Below, piece by piece: positions 6,918-45,817 of a stretch of DNA of 64,000 nucleotides (positions are counted from its first letter, which is position 1; every line of letters starts with the position of its first letter). The stretch is from Verrucomicrobiia bacterium. GTDB taxonomy: Bacteria; Verrucomicrobiota; Verrucomicrobiia; Limisphaerales; JADLHS01. The DNA lies in NCBI GenBank assembly GCA_011525685.1, contig WYBW01000052.1, forward strand, positions 1 through 64,000, in the 5' to 3' direction. The notes beneath the pieces are model-generated. The model worked only from the letters and a program-made list of their open reading frames with translations. It made no database searches and had not been told where the DNA came from. The position numbers and the translations under genes were made by a program.

Positions 6918-6923
6918 TCCCGC

Positions 6924-7775: not shown

Positions 7776-7803
7776 TTTTTGGTATTCAAACAGAAGTGAA
7801 CCC

Positions 7804-11524: not shown

Positions 11525-13480
11525 ATGAGAATATCAATTCAGAGGGCGGTTGGCGGTTCGGGCGGGTTGTTGGACCGGCCCGGTATGGCCAGACCCACAC
11601 GCGGAACGGCAACGCGTATCGCCTGGCTGCGCCGGATGATTTGTTTGGGCATGCTGACGCTGGTTATGCCGTCGGTGGTGCGGGGCGAGCCGGGTTTTGT
11701 CACGCAAGGGATCGAGTATGGCATCGCCGGGGCGGCCCTGGGAGATCAGGTTTATCCGGCGGTTAGCCTGAAACCAAGCGGCGGATTCGTCGTGTGGCAG
11801 GATAACCGCACCGACGGAGACGGGCAGGGAATCAGCGCGCTGCGCTTGGACACCAGTTTTTCGAGTCCGTTTGGTTCTTTTCGGGTGAATGAAATCGGGG
11901 CTTTCGATCAGAGCCATCCGGCAGTTTCGCTGTTGAATGATGGCGGGGCGGTGTTTGTGTGGCAGGGCGGGCGGCGGGGTTATCAAGGAATTTACGCCCG
12001 GTTCCTCACTTCCTCGAATACTTGGGCCGGGGGCGACGTGCTGGTCAACACCTTTACGAATCACTCGAAGCTCAGTCCGGCTGTCGCCACGTTGAGCGAT
12101 GGGAACGTGGTGGTGGTCTGGGGCAGCTTCAATCAAGTGGCGGCGGACAGCATGCAGGACGTGTTCGCGCAACGCTTCAGCCCGGCCGGCCAGAAACTGG
12201 GCGGTGAGTTCCGGGTGAACCCGGTGACCGCTTTCAACCAGCGTTCCCCCGTGATTGCGGCCTTGACGGATGGGCGGTTCGTGGTTGCGTGGGTGTCCGA
12301 ACACCAACGCTTCGAGAACAGCGTGGACATCTTCGCCCAGATGTTTTCCGCCGCCGGCGTGCCTTCCGGCAACCCGGTGATGATCAACACGGGCACCAAC
12401 GTTTGCGCCAACCCGAGCGTGGCACCATCGGCGGACGGCGGATTTGTCGTGGCGTGGACGCAAAAGAATCAAGTGGAGCGGTCCGACAGTTGGGATGTTT
12501 TCGCCCGGCCATTTTCCGGCGGTGGTTTTGGCGGCGTCGCCCGTCGCGTGAACACGCACACCTACGGCGACCAGTACGCGCCGCGCATCAGCGCTAACGG
12601 TTCGGACTACATGGTGGTCTGGACGAGCCTGGGGCAGGATGGTTCGCGCGAAGGGGTGTACGGCCAGTTCTTGCGGAGTGATGGATTACTGGCCGGTGGC
12701 GAGTTCCGCGTGAATCTGACTACGGCCAGCCAGCAGATGCACCCGGCACTGGCGGCGGACGGCACGGGCCGGTTCCTCGCGGTCTGGACGGGATTTGTCG
12801 GCGGGGCGGGAAGCTTCGACCTCGCCGCCCAGCGGTTTGCGAGCATTGCCGATCCCATCCCCGCGCCGGAGCCGCCGTACGTGACCATCCTGAGTTCGAA
12901 TCGCCTGAGTGTGACGTGGCCGCTGATGGAGGGTTTCAATATTGCCAACTACGAAGTTTACATGAACGGGGCGATGCCTCCCGCGGCCACGGCGGTGACC
13001 ACGGAGAATTTGTGGACCGCGACGGGACTGTCGCCCAACAGCACCCACTCATTCCGGCTGGCGTTTGTGCTGGCGGACGGCCGGCGCTCGCCGCTCTCGG
13101 GCGAAACCACCGCCACCACTTACGGACCGTTCACCTACTTTGGCATCCCCGTGGAGTGGATGTCGCAACACTGGGGCGACAACTGGCCTCCGGCATTGGA
13201 CGACAGCGATGGAGACGGCGCCTCGAATCGCGATGAGTTTCTGGCCGGCACGGATCCGACCGACCCGAACAGTGTGCTGCGCGTCCGGTTGGAATCCACG
13301 CCGCAGGGATGGTTCATGAGCTGGCCGACGCGGCCGGGACTTATCTATCAGGCGCAGGCATCGGAGGATTTGCAGAACTGGTCGAACTTGGGCGGGCTGC
13401 GGTTCGCGGCCGGTTCGGTGGATTCCGTGTTCCTGAGCGGGGGCAACACCGGTTATTTCCGGATCGTCCGAGTGCGTTAA
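11525..13480 (+). CDS. Secreted repeat protein with Fn3-like domain and Ca-binding-type motif
   Basis: About 651 residues from the ATG at 11525. A TTG at 11513 with AGGA four bases upstream, or the ATG at 11585, are alternatives. All give the same hydrophobic export segment (MICLGMLTLVMPSVVRG). Residues about 60-440 hold seven or more ~50-residue repeats with the core GGFVVxWQ...DVFAQRFSxxGxxxGGEFRVN. These are probably beta-propeller or solenoid blades like those in many bacterial surface proteins. An Fn3-like domain follows (about 450-530), then DSDGDGASNRDEFLAGTDPTDPNS (a TSP3/dockerin-like Ca-binding loop at about 560-585), then the C-terminal module ending GYFRIVRVR. The role is unknown but extracellular. 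It is the first of five co-directional secreted proteins. Confidence 0.8.
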   Translation: MRISIQRAVGGSGGLLDRPGMARPTRGTATRIAWLRRMICLGMLTLVMPSVVRGEPGFVTQGIEYGIAGAALGDQVYPAVSLKPSGGFVVWQDNRTDGDGQGISALRLDTSFSSPFGSFRVNEIGAFDQSHPAVSLLNDGGAVFVWQGGRRGYQGIYARFLTSSNTWAGGDVLVNTFTNHSKLSPAVATLSDGNVVVVWGSFNQVAADSMQDVFAQRFSPAGQKLGGEFRVNPVTAFNQRSPVIAALTDGRFVVAWVSEHQRFENSVDIFAQMFSAAGVPSGNPVMINTGTNVCANPSVAPSADGGFVVAWTQKNQVERSDSWDVFARPFSGGGFGGVARRVNTHTYGDQYAPRISANGSDYMVVWTSLGQDGSREGVYGQFLRSDGLLAGGEFRVNLTTASQQMHPALAADGTGRFLAVWTGFVGGAGSFDLAAQRFASIADPIPAPEPPYVTILSSNRLSVTWPLMEGFNIANYEVYMNGAMPPAATAVTTENLWTATGLSPNSTHSFRLAFVLADGRRSPLSGETTATTYGPFTYFGIPVEWMSQHWGDNWPPALDDSDGDGASNRDEFLAGTDPTDPNSVLRVRLESTPQGWFMSWPTRPGLIYQAQASEDLQNWSNLGGLRFAAGSVDSVFLSGGNTGYFRIVRVR

Positions 13481-13490
13481 TCGAGTTTCT

Positions 13491-15716
13491 ATGTTGCGAA
13501 TATTAAAGCGATTTTGCTGGGTGTGGCTCGTGTTCGGGAGCGCGCAATGGGCCTCGGCGTTTTCGTTGGGCGGGCCCATCAACGAGGCCTATCAGGTTCC
13601 GGCCATTGCCTACAACCTGCCCGGCGACATCATGGCGCCGAAGAACTTGGGCGAGGAGTACCGGCGAAACACCCCGGTGATGTATTACACCTTCGACGCG
13701 AACTTTCTCGAGTTTTTCGGCTCCAACGGCGTCTTCGCGGTCGAGCAGGCGTTTGCCATCATGAACTCCCTGAGCAACGTGTCGGCTTACACCCAGGGAT
13801 TGTACGAGTTCCCCTACGAGGCGCAGGAATTCAACTGGCTGGCGCAGGCGCTGTTGTTGTGGGATTTGAAGTCCAAGACCCTGACGTTGCTGGTCGAGCA
13901 GATGGGCCTGGCCGAGCCGGATCGTTACACCTGGACACTGCACGACCGCTACCTGCCGCCGGGCGGCGCCTGTCCGCAGGACATGCTCTATCTGGTCATC
14001 AAACGCAATTTCGATCCGGTCTGGAGCACGACGGATCAACTGCAACCGAGCAGTTACGTCAATGGCACCCTTTACAGCTACGACATTTTTGAAATCTGCA
14101 CGGGACCCGATCCCCTGGCAGAGGCGGTGGAGTTTCCGGTGGACCCCAACGCCGGCATTTTCACGGCGGTGTCGGCCTTTGGGCAGGAGTTTGGCGGTTT
14201 CTACACCGGCCTGACGCGGGATGACGTGGGGGGATTGCGGTATCTGCTGCGCACAAACAACATGAACATCGAGAGCGCCGGCGCGGACACGTTCACGTTT
14301 GTCACCAACAACGCCGCCACCGAACTGGTGGTCAGCTCGAATTTCACGTTTCTGTCCAGTGCGGCCCTGACCAATGACGCCATCGCGCTGACGGCGCTGA
14401 TTCCCGAACTGGTCATTTCCAGCAGCACGAACTACTTCACCAACATCGTCACGACGAACGTGCTGGCCTACTTCACCAACTTCCCGTGGTCGCCCGCCGG
14501 CAGCCCGCTCACGCTGGTGTTTGCCACCAACTACACCACCAACGTCGCCACCCATTACAACCACACGTTTGCCAACGTCATCACGAACACCTATTACACG
14601 ACCGGCACGGTGACGATTCTGGAAACCAACATCGGGCCGTGCGGACCGTGGTCGCCGCCCGACCTGGTCTGCACCAACGTCACGTTGCGCAACGTGCGGG
14701 TGCCGCAAATCTCAGGCGCTTATTTCCTGGTGCCGACGAACAATGACACCTGCGGTTTCTCCATCCTCTACACCCAGTTGGTGAGCGTGGTCGCCACCAC
14801 CAACCTGGTGGTGCAATCCACCAACCTCCCCACGGTGACCAATGCGCTGGGGCAGGAGTTCTCGCAGAGCATCGTCGAGTATTTCACCAATTACAGCGTG
14901 GTCGCGCGGCGGGTGTTTTGCCCCACCAATAGCGTCGCATTGCGCCAGGGCGTCGAGAAGATCAACTTCGTGCGGCGGGATTTCGATTCGTTGTTGAACC
15001 GGTTTTTCGAGCCGGTGACCAACAACTACACGCTGGTGGCCGTGACGAACAACGCCCTGCTGCCACAACGCATCCAAAGGGTGGTGACCGGGCCTGATTT
15101 TCTGCTCACGGCCCAGGATGTGACTGCCGGACCTTCCGCTCCGCCCGCCGTGGGTGATATTGCGCGCGGAATCAGTTTCACCACAAACGGGCTGGCCGCC
15201 TATCCCGGCCTGGCCGGACCAGGAACCATCGAAACCCCGACGACCTTCATCTACAACAAAGTGGGTCCGGTGTACCTGAACCCCTCGACGTTCTTCCTGA
15301 ACCCTGTGGTGCCGTTTGGCGAAGATCAGCACGGGCAGGTCCTGGTCTGGGGCACCTTTGACGGTTCAACCAACGCGCCCATTGTTTATCCGAACGGCAC
15401 GGACATCACGAACCTCGAGAACCAGGTGTTCATCCAGATCATGCCGACCGGTCCGGACCTGCCCGACGGGGCGCTGGGGGTCAACTACACCAACGTGTTC
15501 AGCGGGTTCAGTGTCGCGGGCGGACAGCCTCCCTACACCTGGTCGCTGGCGCCGGGTTCGCCCGGCCTGCCGCCGCTGTTGACCTTGCTGCCCAATGGCC
15601 GGATCACGGGCGTGCCCACCATGGCCGGGACATTTGATTTTGCGGTGAGAATGACGGATGCTGGCTCACGGTACGTGGATCGCGCGTACACCATTACGAT
15701 CAACGTCAGCCCGTGA
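13491..15716 (+). CDS. Secreted Thr/Asn-rich protein, possible degenerate matrixin-like domain, C-terminal putative Ig domain
   Basis: A 741-residue protein with a signal peptide at 1-23 (VWLVFGSAQWASA). Residues about 30-260 have the flow of an M10 matrixin catalytic domain (YYTFDANFLEFF, 'VFAVEQAFAIMNSLSNV', then 'TGLTRDDVGGLRYLLRTNN'). I see no HExxHxxGxxH zinc site, so it may be an inactive relative or unrelated. Residues about 265-560 are very rich in Thr-Asn pairs (TNYFTNIVTTNVLAYFTNF and similar). The C-terminal ~90 residues match putative Ig (He_PIG/cadherin-like) domains: FSGFSVAGGQPPYTWSLAPG, then LPNGRITGVPTMAGTFDFAVRMTDAG. It lacks the terminal (F/Y)R module of its neighbours. It starts 10 bases after the previous gene, and its stop overlaps a GTG of the next. 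Confidence 0.75.
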   Translation: MLRILKRFCWVWLVFGSAQWASAFSLGGPINEAYQVPAIAYNLPGDIMAPKNLGEEYRRNTPVMYYTFDANFLEFFGSNGVFAVEQAFAIMNSLSNVSAYTQGLYEFPYEAQEFNWLAQALLLWDLKSKTLTLLVEQMGLAEPDRYTWTLHDRYLPPGGACPQDMLYLVIKRNFDPVWSTTDQLQPSSYVNGTLYSYDIFEICTGPDPLAEAVEFPVDPNAGIFTAVSAFGQEFGGFYTGLTRDDVGGLRYLLRTNNMNIESAGADTFTFVTNNAATELVVSSNFTFLSSAALTNDAIALTALIPELVISSSTNYFTNIVTTNVLAYFTNFPWSPAGSPLTLVFATNYTTNVATHYNHTFANVITNTYYTTGTVTILETNIGPCGPWSPPDLVCTNVTLRNVRVPQISGAYFLVPTNNDTCGFSILYTQLVSVVATTNLVVQSTNLPTVTNALGQEFSQSIVEYFTNYSVVARRVFCPTNSVALRQGVEKINFVRRDFDSLLNRFFEPVTNNYTLVAVTNNALLPQRIQRVVTGPDFLLTAQDVTAGPSAPPAVGDIARGISFTTNGLAAYPGLAGPGTIETPTTFIYNKVGPVYLNPSTFFLNPVVPFGEDQHGQVLVWGTFDGSTNAPIVYPNGTDITNLENQVFIQIMPTGPDLPDGALGVNYTNVFSGFSVAGGQPPYTWSLAPGSPGLPPLLTLLPNGRITGVPTMAGTFDFAVRMTDAGSRYVDRAYTITINVSP

Positions 15717-15754
15717 CCGGCCCGGATGCAGGTGCGAATCTTTTGCGAAACGAT

Positions 15755-18664
15755 ATGAAGTGCCAATTACTTTGCGGCGGACTGGCGGCGGTGCTGGCGG
15801 CGCCCGCGCTCGGAGCCACCGCCGATTTCTACGTCAATGACGCGGTGGTCATCTGTCCGCCCCAGGTCGCGCCCCAGGTGGACGCCACCAACTTCGTCAA
15901 CAAGAACTTCTTCAGCGTCAATTTCACCAATCTGGTTTTCAACACGCAGCTTTACCGCACCGCCAACACGCTGAACTTCACCAACGTGAGCGTGATGATC
16001 GCCAACAACGGCTTCCAGTTCGACACGGGGCCGAGCGGCGCGGGCCAGCGGCGCATGGCGGCCAATTTCGACAACACCGGCGGAACGATCACTGCGGGGT
16101 CGGTGGACAACACCAACGTCTTCTTCAATTTCTTCTTCGGTGTTGGCCTGCCCAAGATCGTCATCTCGGCCACCAACGTGACCATGAATTCCGGGACGAG
16201 CACCGTGGGCCGCAACGGCCTGTTCTCGTTGACCGGAAGGAACGTGGACCTGACCCGCGGCAACATCCGGATGGAGGGTTTTGACGACAGTCTGACGGCG
16301 CAGAACTTCTTCGGCTCCGCGTTCGACGGCATCTTCGACGGTTATTGGGGCATTGGGACGAATGTGATGGTTGCGAACAACAATTTTGCCGGGGCGGTTC
16401 CGCAAAGCCCGTTCCATACAGTCACCAGTCCCGGCGGGACCCTGTTTACCTCGCTGCAACTGCCCGGAGCCACGGCTTACGCGAGGGCGGTGGTGGGCGG
16501 CACGGGCGGCACCAATGTGTTTTACCAGATTGTCTTCCTGCGAAACACCAATTCGGCGGTGTTCAACAATGTTTACATCCCCAACCAGCTTCCCAGCCAG
16601 ATGATTGTGGAATGGCAGGGGGTTTACACCAATCCACTCAGTGGCGCCCTGCTGACCAATTACCTCTATTTGTCCGACAATTTTGGCACCTTTGCCAGTA
16701 ACTCCCTGGTAACGACGTTCAATTATTACGGGCAGGAGACGTTTGTGCCCGCCAATTACACCTTCTCCCGCGGCGGCCCCCGGGCTTTTGGGGCACCGTC
16801 CACCCCTATTTCCGTTGCCGGATTCTTCCCGGCACCGTCTCTCGCGACCAACGATTATTCCTCGTATCGCGCCATCCTTGCGCCCACGACCGTGCTGCCT
16901 TCCAGTTTGCCCGGCCCCAACGCCCAACTCACCAACATTCCGGGCCGGATCGAGATCTCCGCCGACGAGGTGCTGGAGATGGGGCGCGCCCGGATTTCCG
17001 GGCTGAACTACTTGGGAATCAAGTCAACCAATCATTTCGCGGGCAGCAGCCGCGCCCAAATCACCGTGCCGTGGAGCGACATCAACTTGCGCTCCACCAA
17101 TGGAGCGATGGTCCTGACGAACCTGCTCGCTCCCGAGGTCCCGCGGTTGACCGGGGAAGTGGACTTGTGGAGTGGAAGGTGGACGAACACCGGCCCAGTC
17201 TTTCAGCGGGTTTATCACGTCCTAATGGTGGACAGCCGGGTGGCCCCCACCGCCCCGGCGCTGGTCCAGGACCTGACCCTGCGCAGCACCAATGCCGCGG
17301 GCGGGAGCGACAGCATGGTCATCAATGACGTGTTCAACGTGACGCGCAAGCTGTTGCTCGAGACGGAACGATTGACCATTGCCACCAACCAGTTGCCGGC
17401 GCCGGCGCCCGTGGGCGAACTCAACCTGCTTTCGACCCAGATTCTCTGGCCGGCCGCCACCCCGCGACTTCAATACTTCACCAACTGGGGCGGGTTCAAC
17501 GCGCTAAACGCCGTGTTCTTCGGTGGTTCGCGTTCCTCGCCTTACTTCACCAGCAATTACAACGAACCTTACCTGGCGTTCGTCAATCACGGGACGGTCA
17601 CGACCGAGGGCAGTTTGATCTGGGCGGATTACTTTGAAAACACCGGCTTGTTCGATACCGGTCTGGGCTTCGGCTCCATCGAACTGGAATCCCAGATCAC
17701 CCGGCTCACCAACGGCAGCTTCCTGGCTTTGAACGGCGACATCTCCATCAACACCGGCGAGTTGATCGTCACCAACCACGTGTTGCAGGCCGGCCGCCGC
17801 TTGACGCTCAACGTCCGCGACCTGCTCACCGACACGGGCGTCAGCAACGCCAATGTCTGGGCGGTCGGCCGCGGCATCCATCTGCCGGTCAAACCGGCGA
17901 TGGGCGACTTGCTCGGCACCACCATCGAGGACACTGCGCCGCCGGACGCGGATGTCCGGCATTTGTGGGCGGCCGAGGACCGGGGCTGTGTGCCGGAAGG
18001 CTTCACGAACAACGCCGCCTTGGGGCGCTTGATTCTCGACGGCGGCACGAACAGCCAGTTCACGTTCACGGGAGCGGGCGTGGCCAACGCGATTTACGTG
18101 GACTACATCGAACTGCGCAACTTCGCGACGAACATTGATTTCTTCGGGAACCTGACCGCGTTGGAGGTCAGCCCCAACATGAGAATCTACTATGGTCAGG
18201 TCATGGCGGACGGCATCTCGGTGGCCGAGCGTTTGAGCGGGTCGCATGGCGGCCGGCTCTGCTGGGTGGCGGATTACGCCGGCATCTGGTCCGGCACCAA
18301 TGTCGTGTATCCCGACGGCACGACCAACCGCTTCAACACGGCCCTCGTCCAGAGCTGCAACTTGGATTCGGACGGCGACGGGTTGGTGAACTGTGTGGAC
18401 CCGACGCCGATTCTGCGGCCGCAGGACATTGTGCTGACGGTTTCGGTGATTTCACAACCGCAGTTGGGCGCGCAACTGTCCTGGACCACCGTGCCGAATT
18501 CCACGAATTACGTTTATTACAAGACATCGCTGGCGGGAACGGACTGGCAGGTTTTGACCAACTTTGTGTCCGGCCCGGTGAGCGCGCCGGTGAAGGTCCT
18601 TGATCCGTTGGGCGGCGGCCCGGCGCGGTATTATCGCGTGCGGGTGGATTCGTATCATCCTTGA
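15755..18664 (+). CDS. Large secreted protein of unknown function
   Basis: A 969-residue protein from the ATG at 15755. A GTG at 15713, overlapping the upstream stop, would add 14 residues before the signal peptide MKCQLLCGGLAAVLAAPALGA. No family is recognised for most of the chain, which is Asn/Thr-rich and beta-strand-rich, with many 'TNxxF' and 'NTN' turns as in parallel beta-helix or autotransporter-like passengers. Near the end, NLDSDGDGLVNCVDPTPI is a TSP3-like calcium loop. The final ~75 residues are the C-terminal module shared with other secreted proteins here (LSWTTVPNSTNYVYYKTSL, then PARYYRVRVDSYHP). The stop touches the ATG of the next gene (TGATG), which suggests cotranslation within an operon. 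Confidence 0.75.
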   Translation: MKCQLLCGGLAAVLAAPALGATADFYVNDAVVICPPQVAPQVDATNFVNKNFFSVNFTNLVFNTQLYRTANTLNFTNVSVMIANNGFQFDTGPSGAGQRRMAANFDNTGGTITAGSVDNTNVFFNFFFGVGLPKIVISATNVTMNSGTSTVGRNGLFSLTGRNVDLTRGNIRMEGFDDSLTAQNFFGSAFDGIFDGYWGIGTNVMVANNNFAGAVPQSPFHTVTSPGGTLFTSLQLPGATAYARAVVGGTGGTNVFYQIVFLRNTNSAVFNNVYIPNQLPSQMIVEWQGVYTNPLSGALLTNYLYLSDNFGTFASNSLVTTFNYYGQETFVPANYTFSRGGPRAFGAPSTPISVAGFFPAPSLATNDYSSYRAILAPTTVLPSSLPGPNAQLTNIPGRIEISADEVLEMGRARISGLNYLGIKSTNHFAGSSRAQITVPWSDINLRSTNGAMVLTNLLAPEVPRLTGEVDLWSGRWTNTGPVFQRVYHVLMVDSRVAPTAPALVQDLTLRSTNAAGGSDSMVINDVFNVTRKLLLETERLTIATNQLPAPAPVGELNLLSTQILWPAATPRLQYFTNWGGFNALNAVFFGGSRSSPYFTSNYNEPYLAFVNHGTVTTEGSLIWADYFENTGLFDTGLGFGSIELESQITRLTNGSFLALNGDISINTGELIVTNHVLQAGRRLTLNVRDLLTDTGVSNANVWAVGRGIHLPVKPAMGDLLGTTIEDTAPPDADVRHLWAAEDRGCVPEGFTNNAALGRLILDGGTNSQFTFTGAGVANAIYVDYIELRNFATNIDFFGNLTALEVSPNMRIYYGQVMADGISVAERLSGSHGGRLCWVADYAGIWSGTNVVYPDGTTNRFNTALVQSCNLDSDGDGLVNCVDPTPILRPQDIVLTVSVISQPQLGAQLSWTTVPNSTNYVYYKTSLAGTDWQVLTNFVSGPVSAPVKVLDPLGGGPARYYRVRVDSYHP

Positions 18665-18723
18665 TGGGGGGCGCGTTTGTCGCCGGAAGGGATGTGCTGG
18701 TGAAATTGTTACTGGTCCGGGAA

Positions 18724-27700: not shown

Positions 27701-28218
27701 CTTTCAATATCGTCGTGACGAACCTCGGACCGGCGACGGCGACGGGCGTCACCGTCACCAACTTCCTGCCACCGGGCGTGACCTTTGTTTCGGCCACCCC
27801 GGCCAGTTACACGGTGGCGGGCAATGTGGTGACCTTCACTAATCTGGGCACGCTGGGCAGCGGCGCTCAACTCGCCGCCAGCATTGTTGTAACCCCGACT
27901 GTGGCCGACACCCTCACCAACACCACCGCCTGCGGGTCGGATTTGATAGATCCGTTGCGCGGCAACAACGTCGTGTCCGTGAAGTCCGTGGTGGAAGTGC
28001 CGCAGTTGACGGTCACGCGGGTTGGGAATGCCTTGGTGATAAGCTGGCCGGCGGACGCCACTGGTTTCATTTTGGAGCGCACCGCGAGTCTGACGCCGCC
28101 GGTCGTGTGGACGACAGTGACCAGTCCGCCCGCGCAAACGGCCGGGGAAGTGCGCTTCATCACCCTGCCCCTCGGGAGCGGCAATGAGTTCTTCCGTCTG
28201 AATGTGGGCGGACCCTAG
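18724..28218 (+). CDS. Giant secreted Calx-beta / delta-60 repeat / P-domain / DUF11 protein
   Basis: About 3164 residues. I use the ATG at 18724, which puts a normal basic n-region before the signal core GWVAGMGLAATVGLAQ. An ATG at 18664 overlaps the previous stop and adds 20 residues. By base position: a pre-peptidase-C-like beta domain (18850-19240); a Calx-beta-like region with inserts (19250-20490); seven delta-60 repeats (20578-21680; unit xxxALQPDGKIIxGGxFT...RIARLNxDGSLDxxFNPG); four Calx-beta domains (21690-23245); seven more delta-60 repeats (23290-24355); six Calx-beta domains (24370-26410, each ending TxxIxDND); a CARDB-like domain (26412-26750); a proprotein convertase P-domain (26757-27243); two DUF11 domains (27263-27990); and the C-terminal module ending NEFFRLNVGGP. 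Calx-beta domains bind Ca2+. A stalk-like surface adhesin or matrix protein is the likely role. Confidence 0.85.
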   Translation: MKLSKLFMRRVRNRDLAPRWPRLAKLAGWVAGMGLAATVGLAQPANDNFANAEAISGASGTVSGDSTGATLEAGEPAHNCVNPDPGGSSVWYQWIAPADGTIIFDTVGSGFDTVMAAYTGTDVTALTVVACDDDSAGNFLSRISFSATTGTVYYIVVDGYFGSQGPVTLNWRSGETVPLEAGTFQFTRQRYFVSEYESFAAPTPPVQMFAPGPLASITRVLGSTGRMLVNYRITNAFYQQIVVTNFFGTNIYTTNFDEGTGLPTDFNIAVATNIAVTIPHLDVDGQGNFSFCLEQFANQISGTNANGLLILTNSPIDFPTNFVCLEGVSISNAPPTNIVVTELFCTNVFVTNLVPTALPFQDYIPQAGQLVFEDYQMRADIPILVFPRNPTPRLNRTIVAIIDSVIPDPLESPDIVAPQVNPARASALLHILDTDVVPNECGTNAGIIVNFTHKTIQAPEDVGEAVVYVRRSGTNGTTSGSVRYRIDWTPQGESSLNTFTLSDGSDYAIADDCILTYAQATPDYTNTSHGTLNWGANDFNLKGISIPIIDDTRVEFNEDIFITLYEPSGVEIGYINSCNLTVLFDNQLGGEQPAGAADRTHNRHDAAETSPPFNQRPGANGTVFALAVQSDDKTVVAGNFTAFNTTPRNRIARMNVNGQLDTAFNPGSGANDFISALALQSDGRIVAAGAFNSFNGTQRPRIVRLNSNGSLDNAFNPGFGANATVWAVAVQPDGKIIIGGEFTMADVFTRKYIARLNTDGTVDTTFDPGIGPNGAIYGLALQPNGAIVIGGEFTSVAGVSRPRVARLNPDGTLDPTFDPAVGADDTIYAVALQGGRVWIGGAFNNFNLISRKSIARLNANGSLDTTFDPGVGANDTVYSIVPQNDGRVLIGGIFTSYNKTRRMGFARLQANGPVDTSFLDTAYNHYAGLPKSLYNPEIEPDNFVFTSGLQSDGNVMIGGGFTRVGGGFTRSDITPRQNVARLIGGGTPGPGSISLAHDQYTADENGLTGYVTLVRENGSLGPAAAVVTGTTLPAGPGAAVENADFSFNASVYGRPLWTTTWSRPTWMLSDGLTDANNNELAVDDVRRASTLNDVFFNMIDNTNIDGNRTFTVEVSAPITADVFFLGGSPSSPAAALASPLSVDGENIPLGVAIGRAAAPMTIIDDDAPPGTITFTHADYFVSEDATNAVISVIRTNGSVGLVTVQYETSAGSAAAGADYQNRSGTLSFPGGVTSNAFLVPIINDSLVEDDETVNLRLFSVTGGGRFGLTNATLTIVDNDFPSGRLNFSVTNYSVPEGAGQATITVTRTGGSKNALSVQYASSAGTATAGVDYTNVTGTLNWDANDIAPRTFTVPIVQDVFVEGNETINLSLFNPSLTGAVGSRSNAVLTIVDDDFYGTVQFSAEAISFPENGGSATITVVRTGGSSESVTVNFTTSDVEAVAGFDYSPTNGTLAFGPGEISKTFSVRLLDNPFQDGNRRLALVLTDSSPTNTLGFPQAVFLTIVDDESNNEPAGSPDTAFFAGFNGDVFTLALQPDGKILAGGDFTFAANTPRTRIARLNYDGSVDETFMKSFSGANDTVRAMIHQTDGRTLIGGFFTQVNGVNLNSIARLNDNGSLDSLFNPGSGANGPIYALAETFAADGSRRLVAGGSFVTYNGTPRNRIARINNNGTLDFSFDVGLGADATVFAVAVFPTNSLHAGKVLIGGDFTSVNGVARSRIARLNTDGSLDLSFNPFAGPNESVRTVAIQSDGRILIGGLFTNVNGFARSRIARLNADGSVDATFNPGLGANDIVQTIAVQGDTRIILGGQFTRASGVSRNRVTRLQPDGTVDPMINFGAGANAFVAAAVIQTNDMIVLAGGFTEFDGVSRPRIVRLYGGAIAGSGSLEFTRANYPVNENATNVTVTVRRRGGTSNAPDGANITASTVTSDGTALQGLHYAGGTNALVFPQGEVFQDILIPIFDNFEINPDRVFQVALTNLLPAGVAATGDQPTATVTIINDDSAISFAAESYSVSENTGTGVAAITVIRVGSVVGDATVEFNTTTNGTATAGLDYLPVTNALVVFTNGETMKIVTIPILNDTLIEGNETITMELTNSIGAYLLSPFQATLTIVDDDFGPGRIAFASPAYTVVENAGNAIISLIRTDGSAGLVGVSYFTSNLTATAGFDYVASGGTVAFGDGETNKNIVIPILDDSFVEGNEVFLVTITNATGGATITGSNSAPVTILDNDVGITFASPVYVVNEGGGSVTLTVLRISGSNGVATVRYSTANGTALAGADFLGATNNLLTFADGETIKTITIPILEDTLVEGDEAFSVVLSNPSSGVQLLTSTATVTILDNDSGFRFAEASYFVDEYGTNALLTVIRTNPNTGIITVVFSTTNGTATAGSDFIASGGSLVFTNGESAKTIAIPIINDTQVEGPETFFVTLSSPSDGAQLLEPVTASVTIIDNDSGLRFSSANYTVTENGVEAIISVLRSGVLTNTVATSYATSDGTAVSGQDYLSVSGLLVFTNGESLKTFAVPIVDDDLEEGAETVLLTLHSPTGQVSLLNPNSAILTIVDNDGGSILPAGVLLTAESVAVNGAIDPGETVTGLFALRNLSGINTTNLVATLLPTNGVTAPSGPQNYGALADGGASASRSFTFTANGTNGAMVAATFEVQDGPINLGRVTFPFMIGSGSTVFSNVAPITIVDNNTALPYPSSISVTGLVGSISKVTVMVTNLSHGSPMDIDMLLAGPDSTSAVLMSDAGGGNFITNITLTFDDAAGASLPFNSAIGSGTYKPTNFGAADLFPVPAPPSPWGSTLSVFNGTNPNGLWSLFVVDDLTIFSGSISRGWRLAITTFGLIPSAADLSVGLTAAPDPVVVSSNLAYSVQITNHGPWAATGVTLSQALPAGATFVSATLSTGTFTTNNGAVIWSVGNLAMDAVATATIVVRPTVVGPNTSTVTLAGHEGDPNPLNNVASVTSTVSSLVADLAVGVVGSPDVLYLGVGGNLTFNIVVTNLGPATATGVTVTNFLPPGVTFVSATPASYTVAGNVVTFTNLGTLGSGAQLAASIVVTPTVADTLTNTTACGSDLIDPLRGNNVVSVKSVVEVPQLTVTRVGNALVISWPADATGFILERTASLTPPVVWTTVTSPPAQTAGEVRFITLPLGSGNEFFRLNVGGP

Positions 28219-28310
28219 CGGAGTGACCCGCGCGAGCCGGTCCGATTCGGCCTCGCGGCAAATTGTTGATTGAGCAAACAGTGAATCGTTGGATTTCGCA
28301 CAAGTTGTCT

Positions 28311-31300
28311 ATGAAGATTCGGTCCCTGAGACTCCCGGGTGGTGTGGGGCGCGGTGGCGCTCTGGCGGTCATGCTGTTCGTTTTGGCTGCGGCGACGGGT
28401 TCGGCCCGGGCGGCGCTGCAGAGCAGCTATCTGGTCAGCGAGGGCAAACAATCGCACGCCGTCGAGATCGCCACGGATGAATTCTGGGTGCGCACCGGTG
28501 ACCGCAGGGAGGTTCGCGCCGCGACCGGGCCTGCTGTGCTGACGAACGTGGTGGCGCAGGTCGAGTCCTTCCGCCAAGCCACCGGGCAGGAAGCGGACCT
28601 GGTGCTTTATCCGGTGGGTCTGCCGAAGAACGAATACACGCGCCTTTACGTGACGCGCTCGATGCTGGTGCAACTGGAGTCGGGAGTTGACGCTCAGGGG
28701 ATCGGCGCATTGATCAACGCGGAGAGTGTGGCGCCCGTGGCCTATGCGCCGGGGTATTGGTTGCTACGGGTGGCCAGTGGGGCGGCCGCTTTGACGGGAG
28801 CCGAATCGTTGCGCGGCCGGCCCGGAGTCAAGTACGCCGAGGCGCAGTTCGCCCGGCAGGCGCAGAAGCGGTTGATTCCCAATGACCCGCTGTTCCGCGA
28901 CCAATGGCACTTGCTCAACACCGGCCAGACCTCGGGCACTCCCGGAATTGACGTGGGTGTGACTGAGGTTTGGGATACCTACCAGGGCAGCGGCGTGGTC
29001 ATTGGCATCGTGGACGACGGCCTGCAACTGACGCATCCCGACTTGGCGCCCAATGTGGTGGCCGGGTTGAGTTTCGACTGGAATGGCAACGACAACGATC
29101 CCAGCCCCAACGTGGCTTTCGATTTTCACGGCACGGCCTGCGGCGGCTGCGCGGCGGCCCGCGGCAACAACGGCATTGGATTGTCCGGCTCCGCCCCATT
29201 GGCGGGTCTGGCCGGGCTGAGGCTGATTTCCGGGCCCAGCACGGACCAGGACATCGCCGAGAGTATCATGCACCAGTCACAAGCCATCCATGTGAAGAAC
29301 AACAGTTGGGGACCGGCGGATTTTGGCTTCATCGCAGCCGGCCCCGGACCGCTGGCGGCCGCGGCGCTGGTGGAATCCACAACCACCGGTCGTGGAGGGT
29401 TGGGAACGATTCACCTCTGGGCGGGCGGCAACGGGTTGGACAATGGCGATCATGCCAACTACGACGGCTATGCCAACTCGATCTACACCATTGGTGTCGG
29501 GGCCTGCAATGATTTCGGCCAGCAGGTCGTTTACAGCGAAAGCGGTGCGTGTCTGGTGATTGTGGCCCCGTCGCTGGATTTCCCTTCGCCTCCACGCCCC
29601 GGCATTTCAACCACCGATCTGGTCGGCGACGACGGGTATAACGGTCCGGGTGCCGTGGGCGAGTATGCGGACTTGGACTACACCCGGTTCTTCAGCGGCA
29701 CATCCGCCGCTACCCCGATCGCGGCCGGGGTGGTGGCCTTGGTGCTGGAGGCGAATCCCAACCTGGGCTGGCGCGATGTGCAGGAGATTTTAATCCGTTC
29801 CGCCACGTTTGTGGACCAGCAGGATGGCGGTTGGTTTGTCAACGCCGCCGGTCTCCGGTTCAACAACAAGTACGGCGCCGGCCTGATCAACGCCAGCAAC
29901 GCCGTCGCGCTCGCGCAATCCTGGGTAAACCTCGATCCGCATACCAATGCCGCGGTGGAAGCCGCCGGTCTGAGCCTCGCCATTCCCGACAACAGCACGG
30001 CGGGCGTCACCCACGAACTCCCCTTCCTGCGTGGCAATCTGCGGCTCGAGCACGTGACGTTGACCGTGGACATCCAGCACTCCCGGCGGGGTGATTTGGA
30101 GATCGAGTTGATTTCCCCCTCTGGCACGCGAAGCGTGGTGGCGGAACCACGCCCCGCGGACGGGACCGCCAATCTCAACGGCTGGACCTTCATGACCGTG
30201 CAGTTCTGGGGCGAAAACGCTTTTGGCACCTGGCGCGTCGTGGTGCGCGACCGGGCAGGTGGCGGCGTCGGTTCGGTCAGCCGGCTGCGGCTGGAACTTT
30301 GGGGCACGCCCAGTTCCTTCAACCTGCCCGTGCTCCTGGACAATTATTTCACCGGCGGCAACGGCAACGGCATCATTGACTTCAACGAGTGCAACAATCT
30401 CTACCTCGTGCTCGGCAACATTTCGTCCACCCCGTCCACGCGGGTGCAGGTCAGCCTCTCGACGACCACTCCCGGCGTGGCGCTGGGCACACGGGTTTCC
30501 GATTACGCGGATTTGCAGCCCGGCACCACCGGCACGAATCTCGTGCCTTTCACGTTGAGCACCGCGCCCACGTTTGTCTGCGGCACTCCCATCACGGTCA
30601 CGGCGCTGGTCAAGTCCGATCAAGGCTCCACCACCAACACCCTGCAATTTACGTCGGGCACCAATGGCCTCCCGCTGCGCTTCAACAGCACCTCGGCGGT
30701 GGCCATTCCCGACAACAACCCGCAGGGCACCAACTCGGCCATTTTCGTCACCAACATCCTCACCGCCATCCGCAAGGTGACCGTGTCGCTGCATGTGACC
30801 CACACCTGGCTCTCCGATTTACAGCTTGAATTGATCGGTCCAGACGGCACCACGGTTCTGCTTTCCGCCAATCACGGCGGAAGCGCCGACAATTACGGCG
30901 CCAGTTGTTCGCCGGACATCTTCCGAACGACGTTCGACGACGATGCCAGCCAGGCGATCAGCGGAGCGGCACCGCCATTCGTGGGCACCTTCCGTCCAGA
31001 CGCACCGCTCTCCACCTTCATCGGCAAGTCCGGCACCAACGCGAATGGCTTCTGGCGGCTGCGCGTCGTGGATCAGGCCACTTTGGACGCGGGGGTGCTG
31101 CAGTGCTGGTCGCTGTTTGTGACCGGTTCGGAATGTCTGGACGGCGGCGGCACTTGTCCCGGGGCGGACATGGCTCTGGGTTTCTCGGCGGCCCCGAACC
31201 CGGTCTCCATTGGCAGCAATCTGGTCTATACCGTTTCGGTCACGAACCTGGGGCCGAGTGAGGCGAAGAACGTGGTCGTCAATCAGGCCCTGCCCGGCTC

Positions 31301-34300
31301 GGTGGTCTTCGTCAGCGGGTCGGCCTCGCAAGGCAGCGTGGTTTCGGCCGGCGGCACGGCCATCATCAATTTGGGCACCATGCCGTTCACCGGTGTCGCC
31401 ACCGCTTCGGTGGTGGTCAGCCCCACGATTGCCGGGACGATCAGTTCCACCGCCAACCTCAGTTCCGGAGAGGCCGATCCTGATACGGCCAACAACACCA
31501 GCGTCGTGACCTCCGTGGTCATTCCTCCGACCTCCGACCTCGCCGTCGGCCTGCTCGATTCCCCCGATCCCGCGCTCGTGGGCGCCGGCCTGACTTACAC
31601 GGTGTCCGTGACCAATCGTGGACCTTCCGTGGCGACGGGCGTGACCGTCACGAACACACTGCCGGTCAGTGTTGCGATCAACGGGGCCACGGCTTCGCAG
31701 GGATTCACCGCCATCAGCGGAAACGTTGTGGTTTTCACGTTTGGCACCATGACCAATGGCGCGCGCACTTCCGGCACGATCAATGTCACCCCGTTTGCCG
31801 AAGGGGTGATTAACGCCACTGCGGTTGCCTCCGGCAATCAAGGAGATCCGGTGCCCGGAAACAATACCGCCACGGCTGTCACCACGGTGGGACCCGCGGC
31901 GGACCTGGTCATTGGCTTGGCTGATTTCCCGGACCCCGTGGTCGTGGGCAGCAATTGGACCTATCTCCTGACGGTCACCAACCGCGGACCCAGCCAGGCG
32001 GGCGCGGTGTTCGTGAATCACACGCTGCCGGCCGGCGTGAGCATCGTTTCCACCAATACCACCCAGGGCGTTCTCTCGCTCAGTGGCAATGTATTGGTGG
32101 GCACGCTGGGGCCGCTGCCCAACGGCGCCGGCGCGGCGATCACGGTGGTCGTCAACGCAACCAACAGCGGTAATTATGCTTCCACCGCCAACGTCAGCGG
32201 CTCCCAGGCCGATCCCAACACGGCCAATAACTCGGCCTCGGTCACGACAACGGTCGCGCCGCCCACAGTCAGCATCGTGGCGGCGGGTGCCACGTTGACT
32301 GCCGAAAGCGGCTTGCCAGCCAACGGCACTGTGGATGTGGGTGAAACCGTGACCATGCTCCTGCGCCTGCGCAACGGCGGCAACATCAGCAACACCAATC
32401 TCGTGGCGACGTTGCTGCCCACCGGTGGAGTGACAGCTCCCTCACCGGCGACGCCGGTGAACTATGGTGTTTTGCCGCCGGGCGGCCTGCCCGTTGCCCA
32501 GCCGTTTACATTCACGGCCAGTGGCCCGGCTGGCGGCACGGTTGTCGCGACGTTGCAACTGCAGGATGGTGCGAACAACCTCGGCACCGTGAGCTTCAGT
32601 TTTGTCCTGCCGAACGTGTGGACCTTTGCGAACACCAACCGCATTGCGATCACAGACAACCAGCCCATTCCCTGGCCCGCGGGGCCGGCTTCGCCTTACC
32701 CCTCGACCAACCTCGTGTCGGGAGTGAGCGGTCTGGTGGGCAAAGTTTCGGTCACGCTCTCAAATTTGAACCACAGTTTCCCGGATGACCTTGATGTGCT
32801 GCTGGTGGGACCCAACGGCCAGAAGATCATCTTGATGTCCGATGCCGGCGGGGCGAACACGGTCGCCAACGCGACCGTGACTTTCGATGACGGGGCCTCG
32901 ACCGCAGTTCCGGATGGCGGGCAGATTCTATCCTCCAGCTACCGGCCTGCTGATTACGAGCCGGGGGATGTCTTTGACGCGCCAGCCCCCGCCGGTCCTT
33001 ACGACACCAGCCTCTCCACGTTCGCGGCGGGCGATCCGAACGGGGTCTGGTCGCTTTACATCATGGACGATTCGACGGGTGATCCCGGCAACGTGGCCAA
33101 CGGCTGGCGTCTGGCGATCACGACCATCGCTCCCGTGAACCAGGTGGCCGACCTCGGCTTGGCCGCATCGGTATCCGCCACCACGGCTCTGGTGGGCGAC
33201 CATCTGGCCTATACATTCACGGTGACCAACCGGGGGCCGAACACCGCCACGGGGGTCGCGTTTACCAACCTCGTTCCAGCCGGTGCCAGCCTGCTTTCGG
33301 CCGGCGCGTCGCAGGGCACGGTGTTCACCAATGCTGGCAGCGTTTTTGTATCGCTTGGAGCGATTGATTCGGGAAGCAGCGCCTCGGTGATGGTCGGCTT
33401 GCGGCCCACCGTCCCGGGTACGCTGATCAACACCGCCACTGTTTCGGCCAGCGAAAACGATTTGAACCAGGCCAACAATACGGTCTCCGCGAGTACGGTG
33501 GTGACTTTGCCGGTGGCGGATGTCGGGTTGGGCAAGGCGGTGTCCCCCGATTCGGTGGTTCTGGGGAGCAACATCAACTTCATCATTTCGGTGACCAACC
33601 ACGGACCGCAAAATGCCTTGAATGTGGTGGTGACGGATCCCTTGCCGGCCGGCCAGGTGTTCGTCTCTGGCACCGTCAGTCGTGGCAGTGTCTTTCACTC
33701 GTCGGGAACGGTTATCGCCAGCCTGGGTGACTTGTCGCCCGGTCAGACAGCCGAAGTGACCATCCTGTCCACGGCGACCAGCGTCGGAACCCACACCAAT
33801 TTTGTCAGCATGGCCACCGGTTCGAGTGATACGAACGCATCCAACAACACCGACTTTGCGGTGCTGACGGTGACTCTGCCGGCGCCCGGTATCGTGCCGG
33901 CCGGAGCCGTTTTGCTGTCGGAAAGCCAGTCACCGGCCAATGGCGCGGTGGACGTCGGAGAGGCAGTGACTTTGTCCCTGAGATTGGAAAACACGGGTTC
34001 CGCCGGAACGGCTAACCTGGTGGCAACTCTCCTCGCCACAGGTGGTGTGACCGCGCCGAGCGGGCCGCAGAATTATGGCGCGCTGGCGCCGGGTGCGCCC
34101 GCGGTGGCGCGCGATTATTCCTTCACGGCCACTGGCGCGAATGGCGACGTGGTGGTGGCCACTCTCCAGTTGCAGGATGGGGCGGCCGATCTCGGCACCG
34201 TGACTTTCACTTTTGCGTTGCCGGCCACGACTTCCCTCGCCAACCCCGCGACCATCCTGATTCCAGAGCAAGGTGGCGCCACTCCTTATCCTTCCACCAT

Positions 34301-35324
34301 CCACGTTAGCGGCTTGGAAGGTCTGGTCAGCCGGGTGCAGGTGGCGCTCAATGGTCTCACCCATGGATTCCCGGATGATTTGGATGTGCTGCTCGTTGGG
34401 CCCAACAACCAGAAAGTCATGTTGATGTCCGATGCGGGGGGCGGACATGGCATCACGAATGTGTTGATCCAATTCGACGACGACGGTCCGGTGCTGCCCA
34501 ACAGCAGCCCCATCGCCGCGGGTACGTATGCCCCCACCGATTACGAGCCGGGTGACGCGTTCCCGCCACCGGTGCCCGCCGGGACGCCATCGGTGCGGCT
34601 CAACACGTTGAACAGCATTGATCCGAATGGTGCATGGTCGCTTTATGTCGTGGACGACTCCACCGGCGACGGCGGCAACATCGGCGGCGGTTGGACGTTG
34701 ACCCTCACGACCATCAGCCCCGTCAGCCCGGTGGCGGATCTGTCCATCGGCCTGACCGACTCGCCCGATCCCATCTACGTGGGCGGCACTGTGGTTTACA
34801 CGATTCAGGTCATGAATCACGGTCCCTTCGCCGCGACGGGGGTGACGGTCACGGATGCCTTGCCGGCCGGAGCGAGCTTCGTCTCCGCGTTCGCGTCGCA
34901 GGGCAATACCACCAACGTGGACGGGGTGGTGACCTGCAATTTGGGCGATTTGGACGTGGGTGCCGCTGCCACGGTCACCATTCGCGCGACGGCCAACGTT
35001 GGCGGCACGATGGTCAACTCCGTCAGCGTCAGCGCCGTGGAGACGGACTTGAACCCGGCAAACAATGCCGCCCAGACCACCACGGTGATCCTGGTACCGG
35101 CTCCGGCCATACTGGGCGACGTGGTCGTGACCAATGGGATCGTGCAATTCAATCTTACTGGCGAGCCGAACTTCAATTATTCGATCGAGGCCTCGACCAA
35201 TCTGGTGGCATGGGTGTCCATTGGTTCCGGCACCACGGCGGCGAATGGCACATTGAAGTTCACCGACTTGAATGCTCCCGCGTTCGGTTATCGGTTCTAT
35301 CGCGCCGTGGCCTTGAATCCGTAA
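28311..35324 (+). CDS. Kexin-like subtilisin (S8) protease with multiple P-domains and DUF11 repeats
   Basis: About 2337 residues from the ATG at 28311 (signal peptide core ALAVMLFVLAAATGSARA). A TTG at 28263 is less likely. A ~150-residue propeptide region precedes the subtilase domain, whose triad motifs are all visible: Asp in VIGIVDDGLQLTHPDL (about base 29010), His in DFHGTACGG (about 29125) and Ser in FSGTSAATPIAAGV (about 29700). A P-domain (29985-30320) follows directly, as in kexin/furin proteases. Then come a linker domain, a second P-domain (30695-31140), three DUF11 domains (31165-32265), CARDB-like plus P-domain 3 (32270-33130), two DUF11 (33145-33880), CARDB-like plus P-domain 4 (33885-34715), one DUF11, and the C-terminal module ending YRFYRAVALNP. 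It is secreted and probably active. The repeated C-terminal units may hold it at the surface. It follows the giant gene by 92 bases. Confidence 0.88.
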   Translation: MKIRSLRLPGGVGRGGALAVMLFVLAAATGSARAALQSSYLVSEGKQSHAVEIATDEFWVRTGDRREVRAATGPAVLTNVVAQVESFRQATGQEADLVLYPVGLPKNEYTRLYVTRSMLVQLESGVDAQGIGALINAESVAPVAYAPGYWLLRVASGAAALTGAESLRGRPGVKYAEAQFARQAQKRLIPNDPLFRDQWHLLNTGQTSGTPGIDVGVTEVWDTYQGSGVVIGIVDDGLQLTHPDLAPNVVAGLSFDWNGNDNDPSPNVAFDFHGTACGGCAAARGNNGIGLSGSAPLAGLAGLRLISGPSTDQDIAESIMHQSQAIHVKNNSWGPADFGFIAAGPGPLAAAALVESTTTGRGGLGTIHLWAGGNGLDNGDHANYDGYANSIYTIGVGACNDFGQQVVYSESGACLVIVAPSLDFPSPPRPGISTTDLVGDDGYNGPGAVGEYADLDYTRFFSGTSAATPIAAGVVALVLEANPNLGWRDVQEILIRSATFVDQQDGGWFVNAAGLRFNNKYGAGLINASNAVALAQSWVNLDPHTNAAVEAAGLSLAIPDNSTAGVTHELPFLRGNLRLEHVTLTVDIQHSRRGDLEIELISPSGTRSVVAEPRPADGTANLNGWTFMTVQFWGENAFGTWRVVVRDRAGGGVGSVSRLRLELWGTPSSFNLPVLLDNYFTGGNGNGIIDFNECNNLYLVLGNISSTPSTRVQVSLSTTTPGVALGTRVSDYADLQPGTTGTNLVPFTLSTAPTFVCGTPITVTALVKSDQGSTTNTLQFTSGTNGLPLRFNSTSAVAIPDNNPQGTNSAIFVTNILTAIRKVTVSLHVTHTWLSDLQLELIGPDGTTVLLSANHGGSADNYGASCSPDIFRTTFDDDASQAISGAAPPFVGTFRPDAPLSTFIGKSGTNANGFWRLRVVDQATLDAGVLQCWSLFVTGSECLDGGGTCPGADMALGFSAAPNPVSIGSNLVYTVSVTNLGPSEAKNVVVNQALPGSVVFVSGSASQGSVVSAGGTAIINLGTMPFTGVATASVVVSPTIAGTISSTANLSSGEADPDTANNTSVVTSVVIPPTSDLAVGLLDSPDPALVGAGLTYTVSVTNRGPSVATGVTVTNTLPVSVAINGATASQGFTAISGNVVVFTFGTMTNGARTSGTINVTPFAEGVINATAVASGNQGDPVPGNNTATAVTTVGPAADLVIGLADFPDPVVVGSNWTYLLTVTNRGPSQAGAVFVNHTLPAGVSIVSTNTTQGVLSLSGNVLVGTLGPLPNGAGAAITVVVNATNSGNYASTANVSGSQADPNTANNSASVTTTVAPPTVSIVAAGATLTAESGLPANGTVDVGETVTMLLRLRNGGNISNTNLVATLLPTGGVTAPSPATPVNYGVLPPGGLPVAQPFTFTASGPAGGTVVATLQLQDGANNLGTVSFSFVLPNVWTFANTNRIAITDNQPIPWPAGPASPYPSTNLVSGVSGLVGKVSVTLSNLNHSFPDDLDVLLVGPNGQKIILMSDAGGANTVANATVTFDDGASTAVPDGGQILSSSYRPADYEPGDVFDAPAPAGPYDTSLSTFAAGDPNGVWSLYIMDDSTGDPGNVANGWRLAITTIAPVNQVADLGLAASVSATTALVGDHLAYTFTVTNRGPNTATGVAFTNLVPAGASLLSAGASQGTVFTNAGSVFVSLGAIDSGSSASVMVGLRPTVPGTLINTATVSASENDLNQANNTVSASTVVTLPVADVGLGKAVSPDSVVLGSNINFIISVTNHGPQNALNVVVTDPLPAGQVFVSGTVSRGSVFHSSGTVIASLGDLSPGQTAEVTILSTATSVGTHTNFVSMATGSSDTNASNNTDFAVLTVTLPAPGIVPAGAVLLSESQSPANGAVDVGEAVTLSLRLENTGSAGTANLVATLLATGGVTAPSGPQNYGALAPGAPAVARDYSFTATGANGDVVVATLQLQDGAADLGTVTFTFALPATTSLANPATILIPEQGGATPYPSTIHVSGLEGLVSRVQVALNGLTHGFPDDLDVLLVGPNNQKVMLMSDAGGGHGITNVLIQFDDDGPVLPNSSPIAAGTYAPTDYEPGDAFPPPVPAGTPSVRLNTLNSIDPNGAWSLYVVDDSTGDGGNIGGGWTLTLTTISPVSPVADLSIGLTDSPDPIYVGGTVVYTIQVMNHGPFAATGVTVTDALPAGASFVSAFASQGNTTNVDGVVTCNLGDLDVGAAATVTIRATANVGGTMVNSVSVSAVETDLNPANNAAQTTTVILVPAPAILGDVVVTNGIVQFNLTGEPNFNYSIEASTNLVAWVSIGSGTTAANGTLKFTDLNAPAFGYRFYRAVALNP

Positions 35325-35422: not shown

Positions 35423-36007
35423 ATGAAAGTTTTTGGACTGACCGGCGGCATCGGCATGGGCAAGTCCACCGCGGCACAGTTGCTCCGTGCGCGGGGTGTG
35501 TCGGTGGTGGACACGGATGACCTGGCCCGCGAACTGGTCCTGCCCGGTCAGCCGGCTTTGGAGGAGGTTCGCGCCACGTTTGGCGACCAGATGGTTGGGC
35601 CGGACGGACAATTGCTTCGCGAGGAACTGGCGCGGCTCGTTTTTGCCGATGCCAATGCCCGCCGAAGACTCGAGGCAATTCTGCATCCCCGCATCCGGGA
35701 GCGCTGGCGGGCGCAGGTGGAGTTTTGGCGTGAAGAAGGCCGGTCAGTGGCGGTCGTGGTCATCCCGCTATTGTTCGAGACCGGCGCGGAAACGGAGTTG
35801 GACGCGGTGATTTGCGTGGCTTGCACGCCGGGCACGCAGGCGGAGCGATTGCGCGCGCGAGGCTGGACTGAGGAGGAAATCAAGCAACGCCTGGCCGCCC
35901 AGATGTCCACGGACGAGAAACTCGCGCGCGCCACCTACGCTATATGGACCGAGGGCAGTTTGGAGGTCCATGCACAACAACTGGAGCGCATTCTCCCGCG
36001 GGAATGA
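35423..36007 (+). CDS. coaE: Dephospho-CoA kinase
   Basis: A 194-residue cytosolic enzyme that phosphorylates the ribose 3'-OH of dephospho-CoA with ATP, the last step of CoA synthesis. The P-loop is GLTGGIGMGKST (residues 5-16), VVDTDDLARELV supplies the conserved substrate/Mg aspartates, and ILHPRIRERW and VVIPLLFETG are typical CoaE segments. RARGWTEEEIKQRLAAQM is the family's R-x-x-x-R region. Length is normal for the family. It starts 98 bases after the protease gene and is probably transcribed from its own promoter or by read-through. Confidence 0.95.
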   Translation: MKVFGLTGGIGMGKSTAAQLLRARGVSVVDTDDLARELVLPGQPALEEVRATFGDQMVGPDGQLLREELARLVFADANARRRLEAILHPRIRERWRAQVEFWREEGRSVAVVVIPLLFETGAETELDAVICVACTPGTQAERLRARGWTEEEIKQRLAAQMSTDEKLARATYAIWTEGSLEVHAQQLERILPRE

Positions 36008-44740: not shown

Positions 44741-44887
44741 GGCCGCCAAGCTACAACTCTGAGGGCCAGCCGTCGAGTTGCGATGAAGCGGAAACAAGGC
44801 GGAGGTTTCCACCCTTGGCGCTTGAGCGCGAAGCTGGCGGAGGGACGCCCGCCTCATTAGCATGGCCTCGATTCAAGACCACCAAAC

Positions 44888-45781: not shown

Positions 45782-45817
45782 GCGCAATGGAGATTTGCGG
45801 CGGTTGAAGATTCAAGC

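Follow-up and report, generated by a model that had tools for sequence, protein, structure and literature searches.

A conserved three-gene cassette of exported proteins between an Amuc_1098-1101-like secretin operon and coaE in an order of Verrucomicrobiia

Results

Organization of the locus

The window, i.e. the whole stretch of 64,000 nucleotides that was analysed, is located on contig C24 of a 6.73-Mb assembly. Five open reading frames, here designated A to E, occupy positions 11525-35324, all on the plus strand (Table 1). All five are open throughout, and their translations (651-3164 residues) represent exported proteins, each with a hydrophobic, signal-peptide-like N-terminal stretch as judged by hydropathy. 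The preliminary description of five co-directional exported proteins at this place was thus confirmed, as were the short distances between the genes, which had been given as ranging from overlap to about 90 bases: the gaps measure 10, about 38, 59 and 92 bases, and when a GTG start is taken for C, the genes B and C overlap by 4 bases. The same holds for the repeat modules, with a propeller-like A, a predicted beta-helix in C, Calx-beta, delta-60 and DUF11 repeats in D, and P-domains and DUF11 repeats in E. The term 'giant' is appropriate for D and E, but A, B and C are not truly giant.

The array had also been placed behind a secretin operon. That operon (PilM, Amuc_1100-like, Amuc_1099-like, secretin) is found at 3880-10527 and indeed has the same orientation as A-E, but it is separated from A by a gene for a PolA-type 5'-3' exonuclease. 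The match of the secretin to PF00263 is clear, while its score with the curated Amuc_1098-family model is under the cut-off (361 versus 750 bits). The protein at the Amuc_1099 position matched none of the families in NCBIfam and Pfam. On the right, the site is bordered by coaE, which was recognized by eye in the window and subsequently used as a marker in the relatives. Genes for GspE, GspF or pseudopilins were not found within 3880-36007. Pattern scans found promoter- or terminator-like sites in 3.5-36.5 kb no more often than in shuffled sequences, a result that neither proves nor excludes a single transcript.

Table 1. Genes and C-terminal domains (CTD) of the locus, in positions of the window
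Feature	Position	Strand	Evidence
PilM (Amuc_1101/MUL2B-like)	3880..5787	+	TIGR01175 pilM 151 bits, cut-off 133; NF045709 474 bits, under cut-off 650
Amuc_1100-like inner-membrane/periplasmic protein	5784..6917	+	NF038287 E=1.2e-16, 61 bits, under cut-off 180
Amuc_1099-like protein	6924..7775	+	by position; place kept in relatives
Secretin with TPR N-terminus (Amuc_1098/PilQ-like)	7804..10527	+	PF00263 E=6.7e-32; NF042912 E=1.2e-107, under cut-off
PolA-type 5'-3' exonuclease	10622..11506	+	PF02739 E=3e-43; PF01367 E=1.1e-24
Protein A, 651 aa: seven-repeat propeller, FN3-like part, TSP3, C-terminal domain	11525..13480	+	
CTD of A	13286..13474	+	E=1.2e-16
Protein B, 741 aa, new family: conserved N-terminal domain 1-260, core 480-650	13491..15716	+	
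Protein C, about 969 aa: predicted beta-helix, FN3-like C-terminal domain	about 15755..18664	+	
CTD of C	18443..18649	+	E=5e-18
Protein D, 3164 aa: Calx-beta, delta-60/DUF5122, DUF11, C-terminal domain; variable slot	18724..28218	+	
CTD of D	28009..28206	+	E=6.3e-12
Protein E, 2337 aa: subtilase, P-domains, DUF11, C-terminal domain; variable slot	28311..35324	+	
CTD of E	35118..35315	+	E=1.7e-19
coaE (dephospho-CoA kinase), right edge of the cassette site	35423..36007	+	by eye in translation; edge kept in relatives

Two observations were made by eye in the surroundings of the locus. Downstream of the locus the window also holds, within 12 kb, a gene for a PilT-like ATPase and two genes for rhomboid-like membrane proteases (43550-44863 and 44888-46741). 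In the relatives, the region upstream of PilM often contains ORFs that resemble an NAD-dependent sugar epimerase and a polyprenyl sugar transferase, which suggests a link to surface polysaccharide.

Proteins A, B and C

Protein A contains about seven propeller-like repeats with a spacing of about 54 residues (counted by eye; six by pattern) and a TSP3 calcium repeat (PF18884) that scores slightly under the cut-off. Apart from TSP3_bac nothing in Pfam matched A at E<=0.01, and this includes the C-terminal propeller family of PilY1.

No Pfam family was found for the conserved part of B, nor an NCBIfam family for the copy in the window. Only the long form of the protein carries a putative Ig domain at its C-terminus, which matched He_PIG in 12 of the 57 members. 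Relatives among the solved structures were not found by sequence, and the fold search with the AlphaFold2 model (pLDDT 88.9) covered the C-terminal Ig domain only. Residues 60-255 were also read as a possible degenerate matrixin, with LTRDDVGGLRYLL resembling the end of a matrix metalloprotease, but HExxH is absent and the assignment is not claimed.

Protein C likewise has no family in Pfam and, for the window copy, none in NCBIfam. The model (pLDDT 85.8) predicts a beta-helix at residues 36-856 approximately (numbered from the GTG start). Its best structural match was EtpA (8vbb, Z 12.4), and HxuA (4i84) followed with Z 11.8 over 206 residues at 3.7 A, where the residues aligned with the TPS domain of HxuA are scattered across positions 34-546 of the model. 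The FN3-like domain behind the helix matched 4lpw (Z 7.1, 75 residues, 3.1 A). With Foldseek alone, C had no match at E<=0.001, and the assignment of a beta-helix therefore derives from the second aligner in combination with the strand pattern. On this basis C is predicted to be a TpsA-like beta-helix.

Conservation of the gene order

PilM was matched in 94 of the 96 genomes of the order, including all 61 good genomes, B in 84 and C in 77, where some of the C matches cover the C-terminal domain only. In 55 of the 96 genomes PilM and B reside on a common contig (56 contigs in all), where they invariably have the same orientation and a distance of 6.2-10.8 kb. Gene-by-gene reading of 32 loci revealed the order PilM - Amuc_1100 - Amuc_1099 - secretin - (exonuclease) - A - B - C in nearly all of them; the exceptions (e.g. 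G006 and G017) were assigned to the wrong strand by the simple gene caller and are corrected by the matches of B, C and PilM. An independent set of 80 loci, nearly all of them titled Verrucomicrobia, subdivision 3, Pedosphaera or Limisphaerales, showed secretin - (exonuclease) - A - B - C wherever the contig was long enough, bar a few gene-calling faults (L103, L143); some genomes occur in both sets, so that the loci are not all independent. The spacing is operon-like, with median gaps of 2 bases between A and B (105 loci), 6.5 between B and C (94 loci) and 8 between the exonuclease and A (43 loci). Of the 94 loci with both secretin and A, 43 have the exonuclease gene in place, and where it is missing the median gap between secretin and A is 105 bases (51 loci).

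The A-B-C order is kept through about 60 families, and considering this order-wide conservation the arrangement at this locus is not due to chance. Conservation of the gene order in relatives had been set beforehand as a test of the array. The outcome was clearly in line with it for A-B-C but not for the five genes together, as full-length D and E as in the window were present in only 4 of the 32 inspected loci (G008, G022, G051 and G080), the others having a different fourth gene or none. The conserved unit is thus the A-B-C core and not the five-gene array.

Several further observations relate to the distribution of the locus. One genome contains two PilM...B-C loci (G002, contigs C37 and C2). 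Three public MAG records titled Akkermansia muciniphila (L148, L158 and L178) carry an A-B-C locus of the present order, and these titles are probably wrong. In two families with small genomes (L202-L208, L216 and L217, from G007, G024, G065 and G075) A-B is found at the secretin operon together with further B or B/A copies elsewhere; the B proteins of these extra copies are longer (1000-1300 aa), and C was not found in these genomes.

Order boundary and a site without the cassette

In a sample of 188 genomes of the class, B was present in 31 of the 33 genomes of the same order and in one of the 155 others, the latter by a weak match (E=3.1e-6). Full-length A is confined to the order as well. 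Elsewhere in the class the matches comprise the TSP3 and C-terminal part only, bar one genome outside the order (G190) with a partial match to the propeller (E=3.1e-34), and in the phylum sample only partial propeller matches were seen. Matches to the Amuc_1098-family secretin, in contrast, were obtained in 173 of the 188 genomes, 47 of them over the curated cut-off. Thus, A and B belong to the order and come on top of an operon that is far more widespread. Tandem pairs of Amuc_1098-family secretin genes were observed in several other families of the class (G126:C26, G194:C27, G237:C5, G161:C27 and G229:C1).

One genome of 95% completeness (G034) has PilM - Amuc_1100 - Amuc_1099 - secretin - exonuclease - coaE on a single contig, with nothing between the last two genes. 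B and C were unmatched anywhere in this genome and A gave only a weak match of the C-terminal type. This cassette-free site puts the position of the cassette between the exonuclease and coaE, and it implies that the operon can exist without A-B-C and that the pilus does not strictly need them.

The variable slot after C

The gene that follows C varies strongly between loci. A D-type giant with Calx-beta and delta-60 repeats was found in 21 loci, a protein with an S8 motif in 12 and one with an M12-type zinc motif in 2; coaE follows directly in 16, an ORF on the opposite strand in 3 and the contig end in 10, and the remaining 30 have other or unclassified ORFs, some of which are M36 proteases or short spurious ORFs. 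A Pfam search with 15 fourth-slot proteins yielded S8 in 7, M36 in 3 and M12 in 1. Several of these proteins have the C-terminal two thirds in common (Glucodextran_B/Big_7, InlB B-repeat and CTD), whereas at the N-terminus they have an S8 catalytic domain, an M36 one or none, and three of them retain the rest of the protein without a protease motif or match. Such swapping of catalytic domains (S8, M36 or none recognizable) on a fixed C-terminal chassis was observed in L047, L067, L097, L071, L101, L060, L063 and L075.

In the window the slot is occupied by D and E. Protein D has 9 stretches of Calx-beta, 10-12 DUF5122/delta-60 repeats and 2 DUF11 repeats. Protein E combines Peptidase_S8 (PF00082, E=2.2e-42) with 2 P_proprotein domains (PF01483, E=1.5e-48) and 6 DUF11 repeats (E=7e-130), and the catalytic D, H and S motifs of the S8 family can be read in the translation (VDDGLQLTHPDL, HGTACGG and GTSAATP). 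The minus strand of D contains an ORF of 1525 aa (19957-24534), most likely a shadow of the biased third positions of D (GC3 0.84).

A C-terminal domain shared by A, C, D and E

Proteins A, C, D and E end in a common FN3-like domain (CTD) of about 70 residues. A profile grown from the loci matched 226 proteins and was C-terminal in 221 of them, a count that is favoured by the construction of the profile from C-terminal hits. When the C-terminal restriction was lifted and 150 of 275 candidates were scored, the genome yielded at least 118 copies. Of 20 copies that were inspected, 19 reach to within 6 residues of the stop codon. Two further copies terminate other proteins of the window, namely a LamG/Ig protein (1039-3591) and a very large protein, named CotH-like or lamin-tail-like by eye (60156-63998). 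In searches with 28 members no NCBIfam or Pfam family was found to cover the domain and the T9SS and PEP-CTERM sorting models were unmatched; the comparison with solved structures gave weak sequence matches to FN3 designs and to glucanase and chitosanase chains.

The CTD is present at E<=1e-4 in 93 of the 188 genomes of the class. A strict coupling with the secretin across the class was considered and rejected, as one large genus with strong secretins has no CTD. Within the order the domain is paired between A and C: among the loci with both proteins complete, it is found in both in 72, in neither in 6 (5 genomes), in A only in 3, one of which has an assembly gap, and in C only in none (Fisher p=2.6e-7, uncorrected for relatedness or for genomes counted twice). 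In the loci where neither carries the CTD, C ends in another common tail, and so does A in L110. The joint change of the domain in A and C suggests that one factor would handle both proteins.

Discussion

Verrucomicrobiota are major degraders of polysaccharides in soil and water. To our knowledge, how they hold and import large polymers is an open question outside Akkermansia. The operon at the present locus is of a kind that is already known. In the Akkermansiaceae, the type IV-like pilus locus MUL2 (amuc_1099-1102) is reported to serve the attachment to complex glycans, the mul genes are reported to be required for mucin accumulation in A. muciniphila, and MUL2 is drawn with the gene of a secretion channel (secretin) and a dephospho-CoA kinase beside the locus (PMC13174399). 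The same source reports that laminarin is stored via selfish uptake in aquatic Pedosphaeraceae (PMC13174399), and Amuc_1098 has been located in the outer membrane (PMC4960237). In comparison with MUL2/Amuc_1098-1102 (PMC13174399, PMC5332112, PMC4960237) the present locus has the same run of PilM, Amuc_1100-like, Amuc_1099-like (by position) and Amuc_1098-like secretin genes, with the dephospho-CoA kinase nearby. It differs by the order-specific A-B-C genes (plus the variable D/E or protease) between secretin and coaE, and by operon proteins that score under the Akkermansia equivalog cut-offs, which makes it a distant relative. An Amuc_1102-like (MUL2A) pilin was not seen beside PilM when the PilM neighbourhoods of the inspected relatives were read by eye, and in the window this place is taken by a LamG protein.

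The individual proteins of the cassette resemble components of other systems. A long right-handed beta-helix as predicted for C is typical of the TpsA-type adhesins EtpA and HxuA, but C ends in an FN3-like domain and the outer-membrane channel encoded alongside is a secretin; a gene for a TpsB transporter is not adjacent to C, the neighbours being the secretin operon, the exonuclease gene, A, B, D, E and coaE. Like the PilY1-type adhesins of the pilus tip, A would be a large propeller whose gene accompanies pilus genes, but it ends in TSP3 and CTD and has no Pfam match beyond the TSP3 repeat. As in the case of the T9SS CTD and PEP-CTERM, a single domain terminates a very large number of exported proteins, but here the domain is FN3-like, matches no sorting model and has no proven sorter. 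The literature on this order in connection with pili, adhesins and C-terminal sorting, searched with few subscription papers covered, did not contain a description of the cassette. In Pfam, NCBIfam and this literature we found no earlier description of A-B-C as a cassette, of its conservation throughout the order, of the families B and C or of the paired CTD.

The position of A-B-C gives good support for a functional tie to the secretin operon, although a conserved gene order can also reflect shared regulation only. It had been proposed that the array could form a surface assembly or could consist of substrates of the secretin. Our preferred reading, in which we place moderate confidence, is that A-B-C constitutes the order-specific outer and probably adhesive part of a MUL2-like locus for pilus formation and glycan uptake. 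The locus would then be a type IV-like pilus/secretin operon of the Amuc_1098-1101 kind, with the cassette lying between the secretin (and exonuclease) and coaE. A, B and C would be exported via Sec and would reside on the cell surface or the pilus, where the propeller of A and the long beta-helix of C may serve as adhesive or spacer parts and B as their dedicated partner. Together they may form the outer end, where polysaccharides or other polymers would be bound as substrates and held for uptake. Lineage-specific exported extras would be encoded in the slot after C, either a Calx-beta/delta-60 giant like D or proteases, and the latter, with their interchangeable S8, M36 and M12 catalytic domains, could open or release the bound material. 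The role in glycan binding would be carried over from distant relatives, given that the scores of the operon proteins are under the NCBIfam equivalog cut-offs.

The secretin operon might alternatively represent a type II-like exporter, with A-E as its resident substrates and the CTD as export or sorting tag. The secretin gene indeed adjoins genes of exported proteins, the CTD is located at the extreme C-terminus in most of its copies in the genome and it was lost from A and C together. Moreover, 15 genomes of the class have no secretin match, and among those listed with the CTD at E<=1e-4 only one of these (G184) appears. These secretin-less genomes, however, come mostly from one family, many genomes with a secretin have no CTD, including the large genus mentioned above, whose closely similar genomes have strong Amuc_1098-family matches, and B, the most order-specific of the proteins, does not carry the domain. 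We regard such an exporter as a rather improbable explanation.

A second alternative holds that A, B and C are independent adhesins, which reside in an inherited neighbourhood and share expression without any physical tie to the pilus machine. Neighbourhoods that are conserved without physical contact do exist, as exemplified by coaE and the exonuclease gene alongside, and the families f8 and f25 carry copies of B and A away from the secretin operon too. Yet the linkage has been kept through the many families of the order though the fourth gene changes freely, and A and C change their C-terminal domain together; we consider independent adhesins unlikely. Finally, the suggestion that the last-encoded protease processes the other proteins of the array is plausible insofar as the slot often holds an exported protease (clan S8, M36 or M12) and E has S8 catalytic motifs and P-domains, but it is very unlikely as a general rule, because A-C cannot need a slot protease everywhere when coaE follows C directly in 16 loci, and three fourth-slot proteins have kept everything but a recognizable protease.

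The reading of A-B-C as the outer part of the pilus locus may be extended to a more far-reaching proposal, in which the outer end of the pilus would be a dedicated A-B-C complex in the whole order, and the class-wide CTD would be the sorting tag of an unrecognized pathway for surface display, used by these proteins and by at least a hundred others. In this combined form the proposal is speculative, and we think it doubtful that both parts hold.

The analysis provides order-wide candidate genes, among which B and C are without a family model, and ties them to the kind of locus that constitutes the mucin system of Akkermansia. The genome without the cassette offers a natural site for comparison, and the CTD, found throughout the class, is a testable candidate for a sorting signal. 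If the preferred reading is correct, these genes would contribute to the way in which members of the order hold large polymers at the cell exterior for uptake.
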